DNA from: Maribellus maritimus
GTDB lineage: Bacteria; Bacteroidota; Bacteroidia; Bacteroidales; Prolixibacteraceae
Assembly (NCBI RefSeq): GCF_022267315.1
Contig: NZ_JAIKLE010000007.1
Coordinates: 62,001 to 126,000, forward strand
Length of the DNA stretch: 64,000 nt
Reading direction: 5' to 3'
Shown: piece by piece, positions 6,189 to 17,187 of the stretch
Numbering within the stretch: position 1 is the first letter of the stretch
Layout: every line of letters begins with the position of its first letter
Program-made: the position numbers and the translations under genes
The notes under the pieces: generated by a model
The model's database searches: none
Told to the model about the DNA's origin: nothing
Seen by the model: only the letters and a program-made list of their open reading frames with translations

Positions 6189-7472
6189 ATGAGCAAAATA
6201 GAGCAATTCTTAAAAGCACACAAACTGTCGGCTTCATTTTTAGATATGAAGTCAATAACCGACAATTTTATTGCAGATATGAAAGGTGGCCTCGAAGGCG
6301 AAAAAAGTTCCCTGATGATGATTCCCACCTATATCGGGGCCGAAGGAAGTATCAAACCCAATGAACCGGTAGTTGCCATCGATGCGGGAGGAACAAATTT
6401 CAGGGCGGTAAAAATGTCATTCGACGATAAAATGAATTTGGTGACTGAAAACCTTCAGCAAAGAAAAATGCCTGCCGTTGATGAAGAATTATCAAACAAA
6501 GAATTTTTTGCTACATTGGCCGCATACCTCACACAATATAAAGAAGTATCAGATAAAATAGGTTTTTGCTTTTCCTATGCTGTAGAAATTTATCCAAATA
6601 AAGATGGAAAGCTACTGGAATGGAGTAAAGAGGTAAAAGCCCCCGAGGTTATCGGACAAATGGTTGGCGAAAACCTGCTTCAGGCTATGGGAACACCCAA
6701 CAAACAAATCGTCCTGATGAACGACACTGTATCGACACTGTTGGCGGGGCAGGCTGCAACTGCGGGGCAGGAATTTGATACTTATCTTGGATTTATTCTG
6801 GGTACCGGAACAAATGTTTGTTACATCGAAAAAAATGCAAACATTACCAAAACACCAAACCTAAATCAAAATGAAAGTCAGATTATCAATATTGAATCCG
6901 GTAATTTTGATAAAATGCTTCGTACCGATATTGACATCGCCTTTGACAATACAACCAAAAACCCGGGAAGATATTCTTTTGAAAAAATGATCTCGGGTGG
7001 TTATTTTGGAGGACTGTGTACAACAGCGCTTAAAACAGCAGCCAACGAAGATGTATTTAGCGCCGAAACAAAAGTAAAACTGAAAAATGTAGGCGAGTTT
7101 ACATCGGAAGAGGTAAATAAATATGTCTGCGGAATTGAACTCAAAACAAATCCGTTGACAGACGTTTTTGTAACTGAAGAAGATGCTGCAGCCGCTGCTG
7201 AAATCATCAATGCCATGATTCAGCGTTCAGCCAAACTTACTGCTGCCAGCCTAGCCGCTGTTATTCTGAAAACCGGAAAAGCCAAAACTCCGGAAAAACC
7301 AGTTTTAATGACCATAGAAGGAACAACCTTTTATAAAATGAATAACTTCAGGATTCTGTTTGAAGCATTTTTGCAGGGATTTCTTTCAGGCGAAAACAAA
7401 AGATATTACGAAATCGTGGAAGTTCCTAACTCCAGCCTTATTGGAGCCGGAATTGCCGCGCTTGTAAACTAG
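6189..7472 (+). CDS. Hexokinase
   Basis: A 427-residue hexokinase-family sugar kinase, transferring phosphate from ATP to C6 of glucose or related hexoses in the cytoplasm. The phosphate-1 motif is AIDAGGTNFRAV (about residues 63-74), followed by CFSYAVEI, the phosphate-2-type segment VLMNDTVSTLLAG and adenosine-region FILGTGTNVCYIE. The eukaryote-type hexokinase organisation is known in Bacteroides, so this is not unusual for the phylum. It follows the fucosidase with an 18-base gap and no terminator, and is closed by a hairpin at 7482-7512, so it is the last gene of that unit. Confidence 0.92.
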   Translation: MSKIEQFLKAHKLSASFLDMKSITDNFIADMKGGLEGEKSSLMMIPTYIGAEGSIKPNEPVVAIDAGGTNFRAVKMSFDDKMNLVTENLQQRKMPAVDEELSNKEFFATLAAYLTQYKEVSDKIGFCFSYAVEIYPNKDGKLLEWSKEVKAPEVIGQMVGENLLQAMGTPNKQIVLMNDTVSTLLAGQAATAGQEFDTYLGFILGTGTNVCYIEKNANITKTPNLNQNESQIINIESGNFDKMLRTDIDIAFDNTTKNPGRYSFEKMISGGYFGGLCTTALKTAANEDVFSAETKVKLKNVGEFTSEEVNKYVCGIELKTNPLTDVFVTEEDAAAAAEIINAMIQRSAKLTAASLAAVILKTGKAKTPEKPVLMTIEGTTFYKMNNFRILFEAFLQGFLSGENKRYYEIVEVPNSSLIGAGIAALVN

Positions 7473-7793: not shown

Positions 7794-8162
7794 TACGTAT
7801 TTGGCAAGCTTTGGCTGTAATATAATATATATTTAATTGTGTAACAGCATAAAGGCAATATTTATTTATTTGACTATAAGCATATTGCATCACAGAGAAA
7901 AAGGTAACCCCTAAAATCGCATATTTCTAAACATTCGATTTTTAAGAAAATTAATAATCTACTATAAATCAAAACATTATTCAAATTGAAATATATAATC
8001 AACAAATAAAATCTTTGGCGATTTTTGACTTTCTAATTTTTCTATTTTATATTTATAATATCAATAAAAAACCCTCTGTCTTCGTACCCCGAAAACAGGA
8101 CGCAAAAAAACAAAAAGTGAAAACCTTAACTCTCACAGGAAAAAACAAATTCGTTGGGGTAA

Positions 8163-8211
8163 GCCTCCCCGGGGCAGTTCCACAGTTACTTTGTTCCCGG
8201 CCCGGGGAGGC
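8163..8211. repeat. GC-rich perfect inverted repeat
   Basis: GCCTCCCCGGG (8163-8173) pairs perfectly with CCCGGGGAGGC (8201-8211) across a 27-base loop. Nine of the 11 stem positions are G or C, which stands out in this AT-rich stretch. It has no T-run and no adjacent recognised gene. Confidence 0.5.
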
Positions 8212-8341
8212 AATTCAGGCTTTGTAAAGCCCATTGCGAAATTAACAGGTTTTAGTAAAAAAACTACCATCCGGGACACACTTTTACAAACTGGCAATTG
8301 TAAAAAGTCGGGGTTTGCTGAAGTATTAACACTTAAATTCT

Positions 8342-8500
8342 AAAATTATAAAAGAATTGAGTTTTGAAAAGATGGAAAAAACTACAGGGAGACTATCTTG
8401 TTTCTATTCGATACCAATTTGGTTACTGACCAGAACTACAATGCCTTCAGCAATTTCTATATGGGGTGACGTGTTTGATATTTATTGCAGAATAACATAA
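8342..8500 (+). pseudogene. Possible degenerate GG-leader precursor peptide
   Basis: A 52-residue open frame without an ATG at its beginning ends at a TAA (8498-8500), 12 bases before the intact precursor gene. It encodes KIIKELSFEKMEKTTGR near its N-terminus. That segment resembles the double-glycine leaders of Bacteroidota peptide precursors (typically a Lys/Leu/Glu-rich stretch, then Met-Glu, then Gly-Gly), but the second Gly is Arg and the start codon is missing (only an internal ATG at 8372). The remainder contains Cys and Trp but no recognisable core. I infer a decayed second precursor; the resemblance is short and could be chance. Confidence 0.3.
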
Positions 8501-8512
8501 TAATTTAATAAA

Positions 8513-8695
8513 ATGAAAAAAATAAACTTATTCCAAATGGAATCAATAAAAGGAGGAGGACACAATAATTCATGTAGATTTCTGGGAGGTGTTTGGCTTA
8601 CAGGCTTATTATCTGTAGGACTCACAGGAGGCATGGGAATCGGCATTGCTACCGGTGCTTGGGCAGGAGCAGTTGTCTACGGATGTTTTGATTGA
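8513..8695 (+). CDS. Double-glycine-leader peptide precursor (bacteriocin-like)
   Basis: A 60-residue peptide with the architecture of an exported class II bacteriocin-like precursor. Residues 1-15, MKKINLFQMESIKGG, form a short leader ending in Gly-Gly, the site normally cut by the C39 peptidase of a dedicated ABC exporter. The predicted core (about residues 16-60) is hydrophobic and Gly-rich, with repeated GxxxG-like spacing (GLTGGMGIGIATGAWAGAVV) and exactly two cysteines, Cys21 and Cys58, near its two ends, which could form a disulfide. A C39-type ABC exporter gene, although broken, lies 2.4 kb downstream, with a thioredoxin-like gene between. A 14-bp hairpin begins 6 bases after the stop. 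The target and activity of the peptide are unknown; a signalling rather than antibacterial role is possible. Confidence 0.75.
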   Translation: MKKINLFQMESIKGGGHNNSCRFLGGVWLTGLLSVGLTGGMGIGIATGAWAGAVVYGCFD

Positions 8696-8700
8696 ATAAA

Positions 8701-8738
8701 TAGGTATTACAGCATGTATCTCATTGCTGTAATACCTA
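8701..8738 (+). terminator. Strong hairpin directly after the precursor gene
   Basis: Perfect 14-bp inverted repeat TAGGTATTACAGCA (8701-8714) / TGCTGTAATACCTA (8725-8738), loop of 10 bases. It begins 6 bases after the precursor stop. There is no T-run, so it is more likely a stabilising or partial-termination structure that lets the peptide mRNA exceed downstream genes. Confidence 0.6.
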
Positions 8739-8831
8739 AATTATTGTTTGTCTCAAATCGTAAATATTGTTTCCAAAATTGTAGTTCAGTGCTAAACTAA
8801 TAAATGTTTTATTTTATGTACATAAATAACG

Positions 8832-9260
8832 ATGGAAAAAATCATGAAAGAAAAAGTAATTACAAAACTTAATCGGTATAAGATTAATTATAAGGAAAGT
8901 GGAAAAAGTGTAGTGATAAATCTTGGCTTGAACCAAGAAATCATAATTTTATTTTTAGATAACGAAAAAATAAAAATCACAGATAAGTTACGGGGTTGGA
9001 ATTTACTTTCAGGGATGTTGGAGGTAAGTTTAAAAAAAGTAATGATTCTACAATTCATTTTTGTAGTAATCACCTGTGCTCTTCTATTCATTATACTTTA
9101 TTACACAGGTTTTGATTTCAATACGATGCTTAATATTATAACATTAGTTGCAATTTTCAACTGGGGCTACGTAATATACTGGACTAATTATTATCACGTT
9201 AAAGCCGAAAATTTCAAAAGTATGGTCATGAATTGGATAGAAAATGACTTAATTAAATAG
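8832..9260 (+). CDS. Small two-helix membrane protein, immunity candidate
   Basis: A 142-residue protein of no family I recognise. Residues 1-75 are soluble and mixed (VVINLGLNQEIIILFLDNEK is beta-like). Two hydrophobic helices follow, roughly residues 76-98 (ILQFIFVVITCALLFIILYY) and 104-124 (MLNIITLVAIFNWGYVIYW), then a short cytoplasmic-like tail. It is the first gene after the peptide precursor and its hairpin. In bacteriocin loci a small membrane protein in this place is often the self-immunity factor; that is an inference from position only. ATG codons at 8832 and 8844 are both possible starts. Confidence 0.65.
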   Translation: MEKIMKEKVITKLNRYKINYKESGKSVVINLGLNQEIIILFLDNEKIKITDKLRGWNLLSGMLEVSLKKVMILQFIFVVITCALLFIILYYTGFDFNTMLNIITLVAIFNWGYVIYWTNYYHVKAENFKSMVMNWIENDLIK

Positions 9261-9347
9261 AAATAGGGTTGTTGTGACCATATGAAAAGTATCTAAATCA
9301 ATTTTGCTTTTTGAGTTTCACGTTATTCTTAACATTTATTATTACAA

Positions 9348-10012
9348 ATGAATGAATATCTTATACAATCTAATGGGTGGAAAACGTATATTATATTGTC
9401 AGTATTATCTATTTTGATTACATACGCTATTAATTCCATTTTCTTAACGACTGATTTATATTATCAGTTGTTTGGAGAAAGGCTTGCATTTGAACGAATT
9501 GATGACATGTTAAATATCCATAAAAGATTGCAAGGGGTCAGCTATATTATTTTACCTTTTTTGTTCTTTTGAGAGCGTTTTATACTAGTATTTTCCTTTA
9601 TATTGGAATATTCTTCACAGAACTGAAAATAGAATTCTGCAAGATTATAAAAGTTGCTTTGTTGTCTGATTTTATCTACATACTAGCCGGACTCGTCAAA
9701 CTCATCATCCTTATTTTTTTTAAACAGGTCAACACTTTAGACGACTTACAATTTCAACCCTTCTCAATAATGGAGTTGCTGAATAAAAACACGGTTGACC
9801 CGCTGTTTCTTTACCCGCTAAGTTTAATAAACATTTTTGAACTTGGTTATTTCCTCATACTGGCCTGGCTTTTAGTGGGTGTAATTAACGAAACCAACGG
9901 AGAACGGCCTGTAAAATTTGGTAAATCGCTGCAACTGGTAACGACTTCCTATGGCAGCGGTTTATTACTTTGGGTGGTGTTGGTAATGTTTATAACCTTA
10001 AACCTGAATTAG
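9348..10012 (+). pseudogene. Polytopic membrane protein gene interrupted by a frameshift
   Basis: Two overlapping frames together make one plausible membrane protein of about 220 residues. The first (9348-9572) encodes a Trp-Lys-Thr N-terminal region with one transmembrane helix and ends ...IILPFLFF. The second (9569-10012) lacks an ATG, opens with RAFYTSIFLYIG and carries about four more helices, ending LLLWVVLVMFITLNLN. The junction lies at a T-rich run near 9555-9570, so a one-base indel is the simplest explanation. The arrangement recalls Yip1-like membrane proteins found beside peptide exporters in Bacteroidota, but I am not certain of the family. The TTG at 9569 could alternatively be a true start with translational coupling. 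The downstream thioredoxin gene starts 4 bases after the stop. Confidence 0.6.
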
Positions 10013-10015
10013 CCT

Positions 10016-10552
10016 ATGAGAAAGTATTACAAAGGCATTATAATTGCAATTATATCTGTTATAGGCGGATTCTTAACCTATCAGGTTATAGAAGGCTATA
10101 ACGAAAAAAAAGAAGCCGAAAAAAACGTTCAAGTTTTACCTGATATTTCATTCAATTCTATATCGGGGAGTCCGGTCAACCTTCACGACTTTGATCAAAC
10201 TTTACCCTTGATAATCGTATATTTCCACCCGGAATGTGAACACTGCCGGTATGAAGCGCAGGAAATCGGGCAAAATGCAGACGCCTTTAATCATTGCCAG
10301 TTGGTAATGGTTACACCCGACGATTCGTTGCAACGGGTGGAGAACTTTTGCTCGGATTACCATTTATGGGAACTGGATAACTGTGAGGTTTTACTTGATA
10401 CAAAAAACCGGTTTCAAAAAGTTTTTGGAAAAGCCATAATACCCTCGGTTTATATTTATGCAACCAACAGAAAACTCATCACGCATTTCCTTGGAGAAAC
10501 CAAATCCGAAGCAATTATTAATGCTACAAACAACACATTTACAAAGCACTAA
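10016..10552 (+). CDS. Membrane-anchored thioredoxin-like (TlpA/redoxin) protein
   Basis: A 178-residue thioredoxin-fold protein tethered by one N-terminal helix (about residues 7-23) with the domain on the periplasmic side. The domain starts at LPDISFNSISGSPVNL and carries the redox motif C74-E-H-C77 within YFHPECEHCRYEAQ. A cis-Pro-type segment AIIPSVYIY follows. Such proteins reduce or form disulfides in envelope proteins. Here it sits between the peptide precursor, whose predicted core has two cysteines, and the broken exporter, so a role in disulfide control of the peptide or exporter is a reasonable inference. The gene begins 4 bases after the preceding membrane gene and appears intact. 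Confidence 0.85.
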   Translation: MRKYYKGIIIAIISVIGGFLTYQVIEGYNEKKEAEKNVQVLPDISFNSISGSPVNLHDFDQTLPLIIVYFHPECEHCRYEAQEIGQNADAFNHCQLVMVTPDDSLQRVENFCSDYHLWELDNCEVLLDTKNRFQKVFGKAIIPSVYIYATNRKLITHFLGETKSEAIINATNNTFTKH

Positions 10553-10601
10553 AACAAAACATACTTTAAATCTTAATTATTAATCTTTAAACTCATTTAT
10601 T

Positions 10602-11042
10602 ATGACGCGTTTTTTTTATGTTCTTGGCTTTTTGCTGGCAAGCTTGCTGACTATGGCCCAAACTGACGATTTTGAAAACGACATTGAAAAACTTTTAGCC
10701 ATTAACGGAAGTTCGGCAGCTTACGATATGGCATTCGACCAAATGGTTGCCCAGTTCAAAATGATGAAAACCGAAGCGCCCGACGAAGTTTGGAAACAGG
10801 TGCGCACCGAAGTTTTCGATACGGAAATTGAGGAATTGACCAAACAACTTATTCCGGTGTATAAAAAACACTTTACCCACGACGACATTAAAGAACTAAT
10901 TGCTTTTTACGAGTCCCCATTAGGACAACAAATGACTGACGCTACAGGTAAAATTTCAAAAGAAACCATGCAAATGGCTCAAACCTGGGGGATGCAGTTA
11001 GGTGGCAAAATCAATACGTTCTTGCAGGAAAAAGGATATTGA
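10602..11042 (+). CDS. DUF2059 family secreted protein
   Basis: A 146-residue exported protein. Residues 1-19 are a signal peptide ending in TMA before QTDDF. The rest is alpha-helical and contains the DUF2059 hallmark FTHDDIKELIAFYESPLGQQ (about residues 90-109), followed by an amphipathic tail. DUF2059 proteins are periplasmic or outer-membrane-associated and of unknown function. It lies between the thioredoxin-like gene (49-base gap) and the exporter remnant (67-base gap), in the same direction, so it is likely in the same unit; whether it takes part in peptide export is unknown. Confidence 0.85.
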   Translation: MTRFFYVLGFLLASLLTMAQTDDFENDIEKLLAINGSSAAYDMAFDQMVAQFKMMKTEAPDEVWKQVRTEVFDTEIEELTKQLIPVYKKHFTHDDIKELIAFYESPLGQQMTDATGKISKETMQMAQTWGMQLGGKINTFLQEKGY

Positions 11043-11109
11043 ATTATATTATTTTCGAACAGACCCTCAAGGTGTATGAGCCCTTGGTTGTTTTTTAAAA
11101 TTCAACTTT

Positions 11110-13308
11110 ATGCCTTCTGATCTCAACATTCACCACATAAAACAAACCTTTGTAAAACAGCACAGCCAGTTTTATTGTGGCCTGGCATGCCTGGCATCCA
11201 TTGTAAAGTATTACGGGGGTGAAACCACACAGGAAAAACTGCAGGAGCAAAGCGGCACCACCCTAAACGGTACAAGCCTTTTGGGCTTGTACCAGGCGGC
11301 GTAAAATCTGGGTTTTGATGTGGCCGGATATGAAGCGGAAACTAAAAACCTGAAAGAATTAAAAGAGCCGGTAATACTGCATATTTTAAAAGATGAAAAG
11401 CTGGAGCACTTTGTGGTTTGTTATGGTTTTAAAAATGGTAAATTTATCATCGGCGATCCCGGCTGGGGGATAACACAATACGCCGAAGAAGAACTGGCAG
11501 CCGTATGGAAAAGCAAAGCTTTGTTAAAACTCGTGCCCGGTAAAAATTTCGTAACCAAAAAAAATGAGTCTCAAAGCAAACGGAAATGGTTTTTACAACT
11601 GATTAAAGATGATTACCCGGTATTGGGAATCGCTGCTTTTCTTGGGATCGTAATTTCGGCGCTGAGTTTAGCTACGGCAATTTTTTCGCAAAAGCTAATC
11701 GACCAGATTTTACCTGAAAAAAATATCCGCACCCTTGTATTTGGAGTAATTATTTTTGGTATTATTTTGTTGGCAAGATCATTTATCAGTTATGTCCGTG
11801 GCATCTTCCTCGTGCGTCAAAGCAAGGAAATGAATACCCGATTGATTTCAAACTTTTTTGGCAAACTGCTTTACCTGCCTAAACCTTTTTTCGACAGTAC
11901 CTCAACCGGCGATATGGTAGCCCGCATGAACGATGCCCAACGTATTCAACGGGTGGTTGTCCAGTTGAGCAGTCAAATAGTTATCGATGTGCTGGTGGTA
12001 TTGATTTCCGCCGGTTATATCTTTTTCTATTCCGTTTCAACCGGTTTTATCAGCTTATTTTCTATCGCAATTTTCGGGTTGCTGGCCTGGCGTTACAACC
12101 GTAGGGTAATTGTCGCACAACGGAATGTAATGCAATCGTATGCCGCCACCGAAAGCAAATACATCGATGCCATTACCGGGGTAAAAACCATAAAAACTTT
12201 TCACCGCGAAAACCTGTTTGCCAAAGTGGTAAATACAGTTTACGAATTTTTTATGCAAAAAGTGTTTGAATTGGGTTTACTGGGAGCAAAAATCAACCTT
12301 TGGATTTCAGCCGCCAGCGCAATGCTGCTTACCGGAATAATTTCATGGTCTGCGTATCTCGTTTTAAACGACCAAATCATGTTGGGACAGATGATGGCCA
12401 TCATCACCCTGATCGGCAGCCTGGGGACATCAGTGGTAAATATTGCCATGGCAAATATTCAGTTTCAGGAAGCAAAAATTGCATTTGACAGAATGTATGA
12501 ATTTGCATCGGCAAAGCCCGAAACTGAATCCCAAAATAAAAATGAAAAGTTCAGCTCCGACAATTCCTCAACTTCATTAAACGAGTTACGTGTCGAAAAT
12601 CTAAACTTCCGATTTCCGGGGAAAAGCCTTCTCCTGAAAAATATCAATTTCAATGTAAAAAAAGGAGAAATTATTACACTTTTTGGTGAAATTGGTTGTG
12701 GGAAAAGTACCTTGCTTTCCATTCTTCAACGGTTTCATTCATTTGAATCCGGGAAAATAAAAATTAATAACGAAAATTGGGATAACACTTCCCTGTATCA
12801 ATGGAGAGAAAAGGTTGCTTCTGTTTCCCAACACGTGCAATTATTTAACGGGACCATTCTGGAGAACATTTGTTTGGAAGAAAATCCGGATGCAGAAAAA
12901 GTAGTTCAATTCTGTCAGGAATATGGTTTTCATTCCTTTATTATGGAATTTCAACAAGAATATGCAACTATTGTTAATGAAAACAGTACCAACCTGTCGG
13001 GAGGACAATGACAATTAATAGCGCTTGCCCGGGCATTGTACAGCTATCCCCAGCTTCTGTTATTAGACGAAGCAACGGCTGCCATGGGGCGACGGACGGA
13101 ACATTTTGTTATCGAACTGCTTCAACGCATAAAAACTGATATGACAATTATATTTGTCACCCATCGTCCTCAACTTGCCCGGCATACCGACAGAATTTAT
13201 GTCATTGAAGATAAAACTGTTTCCGCAGTTGGAAATCATGAAAAATTAATTCAAATAAACGAATTTTACAAAGATACATTTCTGGAACTGGTAAAAGATC
13301 AGGCCTAA
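11110..13308 (+). pseudogene. C39-peptidase bacteriocin ABC exporter, two in-frame stops
   Basis: One continuous reading frame of about 732 codons, the normal length of a peptidase-containing ABC transporter, is interrupted twice: TAA at 11302 (after GLYQAA) and TGA at 13009 (immediately after the ABC signature LSGGQ). Domain order is intact: C39 peptidase with Cys23 in FYCGLACLASI, the catalytic His in LEHFVVCYGF and Asp in IIGDPGWG; a six-helix transmembrane domain (about codons 155-440); and an ATPase with Walker A GEIGCGKST, LSGGQ, Walker B LLLLDEATAAM and switch His in VTHR. The D-loop Asp is replaced by Gly (13087-13089). Both stops could arise by single substitutions from CAA/CGA codons. 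This protein would cut GG leaders and export the peptide; as written no full-length product is expected. Readthrough or assembly error are the alternatives. Confidence 0.85.
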
Positions 13309-13516: not shown

Positions 13517-14329
13517 TCACACCAACTCAAACACCTCCGCCTTTATCAAATCAAACAAAAACACGTGCTGGAAAAGCGATTGAAAATGATGGTTCATGAT
13601 TTTATTGGGGAGGTTAAAATTCTTCACGCCTCGCAGGCGGTCGGTGGTAATCAGCAGCCAGTAATAATTGAGCCTTTGTTTTTGATACAATTTTAGTTTT
13701 TCGTCTTTTTTATGAATGGCTTTTTTGATATCGTCTACCACATCGTTGGAAATACCCAGATTATTGGAGCGTTCCCAAATGGACACCGTCAGCGCCGGGT
13801 GCCCAATAATTAAAATATTTTGAATGCCTTGAGGCAATTCGCCGTCGTATAAAGAAATCTGAAAAAAACTGCCTGGCTTTTTATTTTTTAAGGCCTGCCG
13901 AATGAGTTTTGCTGTTTGCAGCGACGCCATCATTTGGCGTTCACTTGTTATCAAAACTTCATCCGAAAACAAAAATTTCACAAACAAACGATGCGGATTT
14001 TCACGTTCGAAAATATGCTGAGCCAATTCGATAAAATGTTCCCGCTCCTTGTTCACTTCTGTTTGTCTTTTATCAGGTATACTTGCATTTCCGGGATTTA
14101 AACGGGTCAGTTCAATCCCAATTTTCTGACGATTCTTTTTCAGCGAGAGTATAAAATCCGGCGATTCCGCCGCATCCAGATTCCCTTTGGGGAAAGTTGG
14201 CAACTGTTCCCGGAAATAATATACCAACAGAATTTCGAGTTGTTTTTTGAGTTCTTGCATATGTTTTTCAATGCTGTCCAAATTACGAAAGAAAAACGGG
14301 ACAGAGGCATTTCTGTGAGGCTTTTCCAT
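13517..14329 (-). CDS. Hypothetical protein, possible PD-(D/E)xK-like fold
   Basis: A 270-residue soluble protein I do not recognise. The start at 14329 (MEKPHRN) is chosen because the longer frame would run into the divergent hydrolase gene; a second candidate Met is 23 residues later. Residues 57-76 show ESPDFILSLKKNRQKIGIELT with Pro57-Asp58 and Glu73-Leu-Thr75; a D-x(14)-E-x-T/K spacing between a beta-hairpin pair is seen in PD-(D/E)xK-type nuclease folds, but Lys is replaced by Thr, so this is only a suggestion. The C-terminal half has several hydrophobic strands (GIQNILIIGHPALTVSIWE) and a Lys-rich helix. The 5' ends of this gene and the next are only 35 bases apart, so they share a promoter region. 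Confidence 0.7.
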   Translation of the reverse strand: MEKPHRNASVPFFFRNLDSIEKHMQELKKQLEILLVYYFREQLPTFPKGNLDAAESPDFILSLKKNRQKIGIELTRLNPGNASIPDKRQTEVNKEREHFIELAQHIFERENPHRLFVKFLFSDEVLITSERQMMASLQTAKLIRQALKNKKPGSFFQISLYDGELPQGIQNILIIGHPALTVSIWERSNNLGISNDVVDDIKKAIHKKDEKLKLYQKQRLNYYWLLITTDRLRGVKNFNLPNKIMNHHFQSLFQHVFLFDLIKAEVFELV

Positions 14330-14364
14330 GCAAAATTGATTAGCTTTACGTAAAAACCGATACG

Positions 14365-15768
14365 ATGAGACAGCAACGATTTCTATCCGCCTTTGTTCTG
14401 TTTTTTTTCCTCCAAACAATAAGCTTCGCGCAGGAAACAAACCAACAAAGAGTCCTTGGAAACTGGAGCGGAAATATTGAACTTCCAACCGCAAAGCTGG
14501 GAGTTATTTTCAGAATAAGCGCAGAAGACGACAGCCTTTCCTGCAAAATGGATGTGCCATTGCAGGGGGCAGAAGACTTGCCTGTTAGTAAAGTTTCGCT
14601 GGAAAAAGAAAAAATAATACTCACTGTAAAAATGATTCAGGGAGTTTATGAAGGTCAATTAAAAAACGACTCTACCCTTGAAGGAACATGGGAACAGCGG
14701 GGAGCAAAATTTCCGCTTACATTAAAGAAAACAAAAACCATTACCAAACTAAAAAGACCACAAACACCGCAAGGCCCGTTTCCCTATTTGTCGGAAGAAG
14801 TGGAGTATTCCAATCCGAAATCCGGTTTTCTACTGGCCGGAACGCTAACGATTCCTGAGGATACCAACAATTGCCCGGCAGTCATTTTAATTTCAGGCTC
14901 CGGTGCTCAGGACCGCGATGAAACCATTTTTCAACACAAGCCCTTTTGGGTCATTGCCGACTTTCTCAGTCGTAACGGAATTGCGGTTTTACGTGTTGAC
15001 GACCGTGGAGTGGGTGGTTCTGAAGGCCATTTATCAGAGGCAACCAGTGAAGATTTTGCCGGCGACGTTATTGCCGGAATTGATTTTCTAAAGTCAAAAG
15101 ATAGAATTAATCCGGAGAAAATTGGTCTCATCGGACACAGCGAAGGTGGGTTGATTGCGCCTCTTGTTGCCAGCCAAACGAGAGATGTTGCGTTTATTGT
15201 TCTTCTGGCAGGACCAGGAATTACGGGCGAACAAATTCTATATAAACAAAACGATTTGTTGCTGGCCGCAATGGGGATGGACCAAAATGCGATTGATAAA
15301 AATAGCAAATTACAGCAAGCCATTTTTAATATTATTCAGACAGAAAAAGACTCCGCCAAACAAATTGATCGGCTACAGCGTGCCTATTCCAACGGAATGT
15401 ACCCAATGTTAAATGCAGAACAAAAAGTCGCAATTGATGCACAGGTTGCGGAAGTAAACAATGCCTGGTTTCGCTTTTTCCTCTCTTACGATCCGGCGCC
15501 AACATTAAAAAAAGTAAAGTGCCCGGTACTCGCGCTAAACGGAGCAAAAGACTTGCAGGTTCTGGCTAATATTAACCTGAATGCCATAAAAGAAGCGCTT
15601 AAAGAAGGAGGAAACACAAACTTCAAGACCATAAAACTGGAACAGCTGAACCACCTTTTTCAACAGTGTAAAACCGGCGCCGTTGCCGAATATGGCGAGA
15701 TTGAAGAAACTATTTCGCCGGAAGTTTTGGAAATAATAAAAAATTGGATTGGAAACGTTTCAAAGTAA
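14365..15768 (+). CDS. Secreted alpha/beta hydrolase (serine esterase/peptidase-like)
   Basis: A 467-residue exported hydrolase. Residues 1-22 are a signal peptide (FVLFFFLQTISFAQ). Residues about 30-125 form a beta-rich N-terminal domain (LGNWSGNIELPTAKLGVIF, LEGTWEQRG), as in bacterial proteins where a lipocalin-like domain precedes an alpha/beta hydrolase. The hydrolase domain follows from about 150, with the oxyanion strand PAVILISGSGAQDRDE, the nucleophile elbow GHSEGG (Ser259), a likely acid in LNGAKDLQV and the His in EQLNHLFQ. The probable activity is esterase or acyl-peptidase; substrate unknown. It is monocistronic, divergent from the hypothetical gene to its left. Confidence 0.88.
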   Translation: MRQQRFLSAFVLFFFLQTISFAQETNQQRVLGNWSGNIELPTAKLGVIFRISAEDDSLSCKMDVPLQGAEDLPVSKVSLEKEKIILTVKMIQGVYEGQLKNDSTLEGTWEQRGAKFPLTLKKTKTITKLKRPQTPQGPFPYLSEEVEYSNPKSGFLLAGTLTIPEDTNNCPAVILISGSGAQDRDETIFQHKPFWVIADFLSRNGIAVLRVDDRGVGGSEGHLSEATSEDFAGDVIAGIDFLKSKDRINPEKIGLIGHSEGGLIAPLVASQTRDVAFIVLLAGPGITGEQILYKQNDLLLAAMGMDQNAIDKNSKLQQAIFNIIQTEKDSAKQIDRLQRAYSNGMYPMLNAEQKVAIDAQVAEVNNAWFRFFLSYDPAPTLKKVKCPVLALNGAKDLQVLANINLNAIKEALKEGGNTNFKTIKLEQLNHLFQQCKTGAVAEYGEIEETISPEVLEIIKNWIGNVSK

Positions 15769-15870
15769 TTAAGGTTAATCTTTTTACAATTTCTGAGAAT
15801 CTAATGCTTTTCCTTCTCTGAAAATTTATTTGTCGTTGGATATTTGTATTTTGGAAGCTCAAATCAAATT

Positions 15871-17187
15871 ATGTCAACAAAAAAACGTATTCTCAACATC
15901 CTTTTTTGGTCGGTTGTATCGGCGGCTTTTATTGGACCGGGAACCATCACAACGGCTGCCAAATCAGGCGCTGCATTTGGCAATGAATTACTTTGGACTT
16001 TGCTTTTTTCCACGCTGTCCTGTTTGTTGTTACAGGAAGCCGCCGCGCGGCTGACAATGGTTTCAGGGAGAAACCTTGGGCAAGCGATTGTGGAACAGTT
16101 CAACGCCAGCAAATCAAAATGGCTGGTTTTGTCGCTGGTTTTGGGAGCCATTGTATTGGGAGCCGCCGCTTACGAAATGGGAAATTTACTTGGCGCCGTT
16201 GCCGGTTTTCAATTGATCTCTAATTTGCCCTCCTACGTTCTGGTGCTGACAATCGGAGCTGTAGCAGCCATAATTCTGAGCATTCCCTCACTCAAAATAA
16301 TTTCCACCATCATGGGATTTTTAGTGGTAATTATGGGAGTTGGATTTCTTATAACGGCTTTTCTGATTCAACCATCTTTAAACGAAATTGTAAAAGGAGC
16401 CTTTGTTCCCCGAATTCCGTCGAAACCGGAAGCAGGAGTCCTGATGCTCGGACTAATTGGAACGACCATTGTTCCCTACAATCTGTTCCTGGGGTCGGGA
16501 ATTTCAACGCAAAAACAAAGCATCAAAGAAATGCGTTTTGGACTGGCCGTTGCGGTTTTATTGGGTGGACTTTTCTCGATGGCTGTTTTAATTGTGGGTA
16601 CTTCGGTTGCCGGAAAATTTTCTTTTGAGGAACTCTCGCTGGCACTGCAAAAGCGAATGGGAATCGGCGGAAAATATTTATTGGGTTTTGGTCTTTTTGC
16701 TGCCGGATTTACCTCAACAATCACAGCACCTCTAGCAGCTGCAATAACACTGAGAAGTTTGTTTGGAAGCAAAAATCCGGAAAAATGGGAAGCCAAATCA
16801 CTCAATTTTAAAATCGGATGGATCGTTGTTTTATTTGCAGGAGTTGCCTTTGCTGCAGGAAATGTAAAACCAATTCCGGCTATCATTCTGGCGCAGGCAC
16901 TCAACGGATTCCTGCTGCCTTTTATAAGTATATTTTTGTTTATCGTCATCAATAATTCGGGAATAACAGGGAAGGAAAATTCAAATTCGCTCTGGCTAAA
17001 TATTTTGATGATTTTAGTAATTTTCATAACCTTGATTATTGGGTTAAACAGCGCGGTGAAAGCGGTTTATTCGGCAATTACGTCAGGAAGCATTTCAGGG
17101 AACAAGTATCTTATATTCATCGGAGTGACTTCTGCAGTTATTTCCATTTATATATGGATAAAAGCCCGCCGCAGGAATAATGATTAA
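15871..17187 (+). CDS. Nramp-family transporter lacking canonical metal ligands
   Basis: A 438-residue polytopic membrane protein with the Nramp fold (about 11 helices). The start is set at ATG 15871 (MSTKKRILN), matching the family start just before TM1. In Mn/Fe Nramps TM1 carries Asp-Pro-Gly-Asn and TM6 Met-Pro-His. Here TM1 reads Gly22-Pro-Gly-Thr25 (AAFIGPGTITTAA) and TM6 reads Val201-Pro-Tyr-Asn204 (GTTIVPYNLFLGSG), so the Asp, Asn and Met metal ligands are all absent. It is therefore unlikely to be a standard manganese or iron importer. The 5-oxoprolinase-type gene starts 9 bases after its stop, pointing to a shared job; Nramp-like YcsG beside the 5-oxoprolinase genes of Bacillus subtilis is a parallel. 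Transport of 5-oxoproline or a related compound is my inference. Confidence 0.88.
   Translation: MSTKKRILNILFWSVVSAAFIGPGTITTAAKSGAAFGNELLWTLLFSTLSCLLLQEAAARLTMVSGRNLGQAIVEQFNASKSKWLVLSLVLGAIVLGAAAYEMGNLLGAVAGFQLISNLPSYVLVLTIGAVAAIILSIPSLKIISTIMGFLVVIMGVGFLITAFLIQPSLNEIVKGAFVPRIPSKPEAGVLMLGLIGTTIVPYNLFLGSGISTQKQSIKEMRFGLAVAVLLGGLFSMAVLIVGTSVAGKFSFEELSLALQKRMGIGGKYLLGFGLFAAGFTSTITAPLAAAITLRSLFGSKNPEKWEAKSLNFKIGWIVVLFAGVAFAAGNVKPIPAIILAQALNGFLLPFISIFLFIVINNSGITGKENSNSLWLNILMILVIFITLIIGLNSAVKAVYSAITSGSISGNKYLIFIGVTSAVISIYIWIKARRRNND

Follow-up and report, generated by a model that had tools for sequence, protein, structure and literature searches.

Bacteroidetocins are class IIf bacteriocins which kill Bacteroidales and have BamA as their target (PMC8546649). 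The bacteroidetocin regions have been described as a set of genes for a protein with five transmembrane stretches (5-TM) of unassigned function, a small peptide with a double-glycine (GG) leader, a thiol oxidoreductase and a C39 ATP-binding cassette (ABC) transporter (Coyne 2019; PMC6671954). Transposon insertions in these regions abolish and deletions attenuate the activity, and in E. coli the four genes are enough; the published loci are without an immunity gene, and the producer is reported to be self-inhibited (PMC6671954). The core peptide of the class is about 42-53 amino acids (aa) long and contains at least two Cys (PMC6671954, PMC8546649).

Here we analyzed a stretch of 64,000 nucleotides (nt) from Maribellus maritimus (the window; contig NZ_JAIKLE010000007.1, positions 62,001 to 126,000), in which a peptide export locus follows a conserved leader RNA element. 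We consider it fairly likely that this is a bacteroidetocin-type bacteriocin locus in decay, placed under a leader-peptide RNA switch; our confidence goes no higher because one helix of the RNA (P2) rests on a choice of helix and because a frame with Gly-Arg (GR) in place of GG in another locus (L225) weakens one of the lesions. The locus itself is not a product of chance, since same-genus exporters are free of stops, the gene order is partly kept and the precursors lie on the exporter strand.

Gene set of the locus and its exporter clade

All the genes listed in a preliminary description of this DNA were found in place on the plus strand, and its guess of a bacteriocin-like GG-leader peptide export locus with a decaying exporter named the right kind of locus. 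The inventory was incomplete, a second precursor frame and the leader RNA having been missed (Table 1), and the gene set that it could not name is that of the four-gene bacteroidetocin region (PMC6671954). Because of this identity of gene set, we take the locus to work like the bacteroidetocin type (class IIf) and probably to belong there. Shared with the published regions are the 15-aa GG leader (15-16 aa in the class), a core of similar size (45 aa) with a Cys pair, a 5-TM protein, the thiol oxidoreductase and the C39 ABC exporter, and no HlyD is named for those regions. The window differs in its order (precursor, membrane gene, 5-TM, oxidoreductase, DUF2059, exporter), in its hydrophobic Gly-rich core, in having a putative immunity gene and a DUF2059 gene, and in its broken exporter and 5-TM gene; the leader RNA is a further feature of the window, the published loci having been compared by gene set alone. 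The 5-TM protein may be orthologous to that of the published regions (EH213_1845): it falls in the same profile family as the TM gene of a Prevotellaceae locus, L115 (E-value (E) 1e-33). L115 has the published order TM-peptide-oxidoreductase-ABC, as do L065 and L080 (oxidoreductase not detected in the latter), and these loci carry hydrophilic cores of KFWG/KFIG type with 2-4 Cys.

Several points weigh against the class assignment. The hydrophobic core of the window contrasts with the cores found here in loci of the published gene order; the published loci are self-inhibiting and without an immunity gene, whereas the window variant seems to have one; and the assignment rests on the gene set and not on sequence comparison with bacteroidetocins A-D or their genes. 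A hydrophobic Gly/Ala-rich core after a GG leader is also shared with the class IIc or lactobin-cerein bacteriocins (PF10439, TIGR03949), but the 60-aa peptide of the window scored 23 bits against Bacteriocin_IIc (PF10439), under the curated cut-off of 27.1, and the window further differs in its Gram-negative host and in its Cys pair with a thiol oxidoreductase. Weak matches to TIGR03949 were obtained with 8 of 29 precursors.

Table 1. Features of the locus with positions in the window
Feature	Position	Strand	Remarks
Leader RNA element	8114..8314	+	uORF (upstream open reading frame), hairpin P1, pseudoknot helix P2
Degenerate uORF	8117..8227	+	reads ..GKNKFVG.., stop lost
P1 hairpin	8163-8173 paired with 8201-8211		
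P2 helix	8195-8200 paired with 8271-8276		
Second precursor frame	8348..8500	+	probably dead; related to 50-aa MKELSFEKMEKTTGG frame of G031
60-aa GG-leader precursor, intact	8513..8695	+	15-aa leader (MKKINLFQMESIKGG) and 45-aa core, two Cys
142-aa membrane protein, putative immunity protein	8832..9260	+	position and type as small membrane genes behind hydrophobic precursors
5-TM protein gene, perhaps Yip1/YknW-like, broken	9348..10012	+	frames 9348-9572 and 9569-10012
Membrane-anchored thioredoxin-like thiol oxidoreductase, intact	10016..10552	+	CEHC motif; AhpC-TSA E 3.6e-10
DUF2059 protein with signal peptide, intact	10602..11042	+	Pfam E 1.2e-20
C39 peptidase ABC exporter (PCAT)	11110..13308	+	in-frame stops 11302-11304 and 13009-13011

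The exporter matched Peptidase_C39 at about 3e-12 on either side of its first stop and ABC_membrane at 1.5e-31. Relatives were searched in 199 genomes, 61 of which gave an exporter match at 1e-60 or better, and in 140 genomes of the window's family, 30 of which matched at 1e-120. Homologous loci with intact exporters, for which the preliminary description had suggested looking, do exist: stop-free exporters 73-75% identical to that of the window were found in eight same-genus genomes (the G018 copy being cut by a contig end), with the surrounding gene order partly conserved as far as the contigs reach. The locus set (74 in all) comprised 58 loci of the window's exporter clade, the most distant being about 36% identical, and, for comparison, 16 loci from a different C39 clade, picked from exporter matches of 28-32% together with the second exporter of the own genome. 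The 58 include 21 of the 80 loci of a wider set, Flavobacterium, Tenacibaculum, Pedobacter, Larkinella and Prevotellaceae among them. Gene content was counted in those 48 clade loci, the window and its sister genome G031 included, whose upstream sequence extends over 1.3 kb or more; the 5-TM and the thioredoxin-like genes were each present in 44 and a GG precursor in 39, so that relatives do keep a GG-leader frame beside the exporter, contrary to the outcome that would have refuted the preliminary description.

No HlyD was found beside the window exporter, as the preliminary description had noted, but this absence is normal for the exporter clade and no sign of decay, because HlyD gave one weak match in the 58 clade loci (L072, E 2.5e-7, 2.6 kb behind the exporter) and adjoined the exporter in 16 of 16 loci of the other clade. 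These HlyD-type exporters (L067 of the own genome, L153-L167, plasmid L228 and L229) are likewise C39 ABC proteins, about 28-32% identical to the window exporter, and their loci gave no 5-TM or oxidoreductase match; GG-like peptides occur in 4 of the 16, as five precursor-like frames with 0-1 Cys each. L067 (G000:C157), with HlyD directly behind it, was the one other C39 match in the own genome at E 0.001 or better. The leader search described below gave no precursor in the 19 kb examined at L067, and export in trans through it is possible but unlikely.

The DUF2059 protein, which has a signal peptide, recurs as an accessory: 13 of the 16 matches obtained in 22 exporter-bearing genomes lay within 5 kb of a window-type exporter, and the gene of the locus was the sole DUF2059 match in its own genome. 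Frames of 49-87 aa between oxidoreductase and exporter in L036, L037, L040, L041 and L053 resemble, by eye, the DUF2059 signal peptide at their start, as leftovers of a deleted DUF2059 gene would.

Cysteine pairs, cargo and candidate immunity genes

A position-specific scoring matrix (PSSM) was trained on 26 distinct leaders, taken from a set of 29 forward and 0 reverse, and the scan of the 74 loci with it returned 60 precursors, a dubious one included, every one of them on the exporter strand. The leaders in the window's family were mostly near-invariant, MKELSFE(K/R)ME..GG, and the cores widely different, most of them hydrophobic, Gly/Ala-rich and very variable between loci. The 60-aa peptide itself is no orphan, having an identical protein in G031 and a weak relative in a Chitinophaga metagenome-assembled genome (MAG; L083, 54% over 26 aa); the protein search with it matched only itself and one shorter copy.

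Cys pairs in the cores travel with the oxidoreductase. At least two Cys were present in 45 of the 46 unique cores from loci with both the 5-TM and the oxidoreductase genes, and 41 of the 46 had an even number of Cys. Only one of nine cores without an oxidoreductase (two with the TM gene only, two with neither, five in HlyD-type loci) had at least two Cys (Fisher 6.5e-8), and within the same exporter clade only one of four (p 8e-4). Against this association it has to be said that the p-values ignore descent among the loci and are hence optimistic, and that L080 is an exception, having a core with four Cys and no oxidoreductase found. In the oxidoreductase, both Cys and one downstream Pro, taken as the cis-Pro, were invariant in 14 aligned sequences.

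The 5-TM protein is unlikely to be a DsbB-like partner of the oxidoreductase, because its family keeps no conserved Cys. Its confidently predicted model (predicted local distance difference test score, pLDDT, 90.5) gave no informative fold match on comparison with solved structures, and its profile matches were weak, namely NF052650 YknW in 5 of 21 members (best E 5e-4) and Yip1 in 1 of 21 (E 0.4); YknW is described as part of a Bacillus peptide-toxin efflux pump (PMC4887032). The 5-TM and oxidoreductase genes track the type of cargo and not the exporter. When L039, which has a bacteroidetocin-like core, is compared with four hydrophobic-core loci of the same genus, its exporter is 71-74% identical but its 5-TM protein only 17-22%, whereas the latter is 63% identical to that of L148, a locus with the same kind of core. 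Among exporter pairs of 70-90% identity, the mean 5-TM identity was 57% where both loci had hydrophobic cores (22 pairs) and 26% where the cores were unlike (20 pairs; range 17-65, L049 being odd).

As the gene behind each precursor we took, by a fixed rule, the longest frame that begins within 400 nt. Behind 26 of 54 precursors examined was a small protein of up to 160 aa with at least one predicted TM stretch, encoded by 23 different genes, and all 26 cores ahead of such a gene were hydrophobic (grand average of hydropathy, GRAVY, 0.64 or more). In two cases a core and the membrane gene behind it were conserved jointly in distant loci: between L057 and L059 the core matches at 70% and the partner at 35%, and between L045 and L062 the core at 61% and the partner at 62% over 45 aa; 18 weaker core-core matches came without a match between the genes behind them, which speaks against cognate pairs. 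On balance, the pattern of a core followed by a small membrane gene is what cognate immunity would predict, and the 142-aa membrane protein of the window is likely the immunity protein. An ABC transporter followed the precursor in L047 and L074 (Pfam ABC_tran) and, by look, in L049 and L053.

Hydrophilic cores were followed in nine of ten cases by a protein of 293-447 aa, the tenth being L049. CarbopepD_reg_2 matched all six of these proteins that were scanned, four of them above the curated cut-off, and such a protein stands directly behind a bacteroidetocin-like hydrophilic core in L039, L046, L065, L075, L080 and L115; by look, the same arrangement is present in L083, L148, L149, L051 and L052. 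It is possible that this protein is an immunity protein or an outer-membrane partner outside the published four-gene set. As a further observation, L051 (10284-11648) and, in the same order, L052, the only two precursor-bearing exporter loci with neither a 5-TM nor an oxidoreductase gene, contain a gene that by eye looks like a glycosyltransferase, and their cores have one and no Cys; in L050 (3107-4450) such a gene, again judged by eye, occurs in addition to the 5-TM and oxidoreductase genes. These three loci are possibly a glycosylated variant.

The leader RNA element upstream of the precursors

In leader-peptide attenuators such as those of erm, tetQ, tnaC and secM, a short uORF ends right at a hairpin that precedes the controlled gene. 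When 42 stretches ahead of first precursors were compared, 20 of them, all from the window's family, proved to share a conserved region of about 200 nt regardless of cargo. Nineteen of the 20 contain a short frame which ends in NKF(V/I) (NRFV in L050), at most one further residue and a stop; the window is the exception, its frame staying open for 27 codons counted from the Asn of NKF, where elsewhere the stop comes 4-5 codons after that Asn. The uORF is 7-15 codons long and lies 174-228 nt ahead of the precursor. Changes in the N-K-F codons concentrate on position 3, with 71 changed cells out of 186, compared with 10 out of 372 at positions 1-2 (p 3e-28, the copies being related). Altogether 49 of the 60 element copies read keep a short uORF, 46 of these with an ATG start.

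Between the uORF stop and the foot of a GC-rich hairpin of 11 bp (P1) there are 0-4 nt. Two groups of copies have P1 sequences of their own but both keep the pairing; in group 1, four pairs were changed on both sides, giving 11 such cells vs 1.9 in shuffled alignments. A segment of the P1 loop pairs with sequence downstream of P1 to give the pseudoknot helix P2. Changes on both sides were seen at four pairs and in eight cells of P2 in 11 sequences, and double-change cells numbered 20 vs 5.5 shuffled in 31 distinct sequences and 8 vs 2.3 in group 1; P2 was absent from the alignment model, but the training sequences were among the 31 rows. Comparison supports the predicted uORF, hairpin and pseudoknot and their position, so that a uORF with a conserved end and an adjoining RNA structure, as in attenuators, is seen in the relatives, the window having lost its uORF stop. 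The element differs from the known attenuators in being pseudoknotted, in having no Rfam match and in preceding exported peptides and secreted proteins in one family. Weighing against the proposed structure, two of five P2 measures were not clearly above the shuffles (pairs with double change 153/500, pair types 89/500), the P2 columns were chosen by a best-helix scan in which group 1 offered other, equally long helices of six pairs, P1 of G031 has mismatches, and 11 of the 60 copies are without a short uORF.

Covariance models of the element, R1 and R2, were searched in the 140 family genomes. R1 matched 44 places in 23 genomes and R2 40 places in 29, with one place matched by both, and the total was 84 model matches in 50 genomes; the window matched R2 at 152 bits and was among the nine sequences behind that model. 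Of 295 genomes drawn evenly from the order, R2 matched three, all in the window's family, and R1 none, which shows little, as no known R1-matching genome was among the rows shown. Extra copies of the element stand ahead of the second or third precursor in L151 and L057.

In 60 copies, the gene following the element encoded a GG precursor (25 copies), a protein with a hydrophobic signal or TM stretch at its N-terminus (29) or another product (three), and in three copies no such gene was present; among the 29, L225 sits behind a GR frame, and one of the three others is the second peptide of the window. At the same signal/TM threshold, 40 of 93 open reading frames of at least 150 aa in control loci were positive, a set that was not size-matched. 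Four of ten cargo proteins scanned had a Pfam match, namely a C10 peptidase with a Spi inhibitor domain, a Sel1 protein with a type IX secretion system (T9SS) tail and two with fn3. Secreted Cys-containing peptides of 65-77 aa were observed behind the leader in L172, L175, L186, L196, L197 and L217 (no Pfam match in the two scanned), and a family of secreted proteins of 241-242 aa in L210, L211, L215, L223 and L224 (no Pfam match in the one scanned).

Rfam gave no match at E up to 1 in the window between 7400 and 9400, and in five other element copies only two chance-level matches, both outside the element; a literature search found nothing describing such a uORF-pseudoknot element. We regard this element as the most novel part of the locus. 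There is about an even chance that it represents an undescribed class of translation-coupled RNA switch, found almost only before exported products in one Bacteroidota family, in which a pause on the uORF gates secreted weapons. Perhaps the switch would read out translation or export stress.

Probable decay of the locus and its proposed working

Compared with G031, the window carries a frameshift in the 5-TM gene (unbroken there, 221 aa), two stops in the exporter, damage in the second precursor and the lost uORF stop. Across 153 nt, the second precursor departs from the intact copy of G031 at two sites only, the start codon and the second Gly of GG, and is probably dead. A point against this lesion is that the frame of L225 (G201:C10), precursor-like, 62 aa long and about 230 nt after the start of a leader element, also has GR for GG, so such a loss may not be decisive; the change is either a recurrent loss or tolerated. 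G031 itself has an exporter frameshift, the pieces being 94 and 96% identical to the window exporter, and a stop in DUF2059, and the two sister lineages thus carry different lesions. The lesions are concentrated inside the locus, because four flanking stretches (6189-7472, 13517-14350, 14365-15768 and 15844-16990) have no indel relative to G031. It is very likely, as judged from the reading frames, that production is off in this genome, given the damage to the exporter, the 5-TM gene, the uORF stop and one of the two precursors. With the other peptide and the putative immunity gene intact, the strain may once have been a producer and have kept its immunity.

The divergence from G031 was 0.2-1.3% in the segment 8348-9260 and 1.6-13% in neighbouring stretches, which suggests that the peptide/immunity cassette was recently exchanged. 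The 60-aa peptide differs from G031 by one synonymous and no nonsynonymous change, which is uninformative on selection in a segment that looks recently exchanged, and the 142-aa protein gene by one synonymous difference; together they have two synonymous and no nonsynonymous differences, too little time for a selection test.

In the intact state, transcription would start upstream of 8114, and a ribosome on the short uORF would halt where P1 begins and thereby decide whether the pseudoknot of P1 and P2 forms, melting of P1 then setting the expression of the precursor operon. By homology, the C39 exporter would cut the precursors after GG and move the core into the periplasm, where the anchored CxxC thioredoxin-like protein may close a disulfide between Cys6 and Cys43 of the core, as its co-occurrence with Cys pairs supports. 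A 5-TM protein matched to the cargo may assist the exporter, and the small membrane protein behind the precursor would provide self-protection.

It is unlikely, though worth keeping in mind, that the upstream element is a DNA site for recombination or cassette exchange instead of an RNA switch: the same element stands ahead of very different cargo genes and 8348-9260 is less diverged than its flanks, as swapped cassettes would be, but the uORF changes with codon periodicity, P1 and P2 have compensatory pairs and the uORF stop is kept in 49 of 60 copies, all of which argues for RNA. The two roles could coexist. A peptide pheromone or signalling system, in which kin would sense the exported core and not be killed by it, is a poor fit. 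GG-leader/C39 export in general serves pheromones too, and the peptide is short and identical in G031. Against it stand the composition of the cores, which as a rule are hydrophobic, rich in Gly and Ala and highly divergent from locus to locus, the small membrane protein (in a few loci an ABC transporter) encoded behind most of them, and weak matches of 11 of 29 precursors to the Bacteriocin_IIc profile (E up to 0.1). No kinase/regulator pair was noticed by eye among the listed frames, no dedicated search having been made. The signalling alternative of the preliminary description has accordingly lost ground.

The decay might also be apparent only, the locus being intact in the cell and the stops and frameshift being sequence or assembly errors, which we hold to be improbable. 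The assembly has 201 contigs, the G031 copy likewise has a frameshift and a DUF2059 stop, and the lesions of the window could partly be sequence errors. Yet several lesions lie within 5 kb while the four flanking stretches show no indel, two differences fall exactly at the start codon and GG site of one precursor, and the lesions differ between the two sister genomes. Exporters split into more than one frame were observed in 9 of the 58 clade loci (the window, L043, L046, L066, L072, L079, L081, L088 and L149) and in 0 of 16 of the HlyD-type clade, in small numbers that include some MAGs; this splitting, which counts against the error explanation, may be recurrent loss of production or MAG errors.

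For a bacteroidetocin-type locus in decay, the comparison gives a previously unnamed gene set a near name, bacteroidetocin type, class IIf, and shows machinery of this type also in a broad variant that has hydrophobic cargo, candidate immunity genes and DUF2059. The joint occurrence of Cys pair and oxidoreductase provides a testable basis for the disulfide bonding of Bacteroidota bacteriocins. The uORF-pseudoknot leader, in turn, would help to find unannotated secreted peptides and to study the timing of weapon production in the family.

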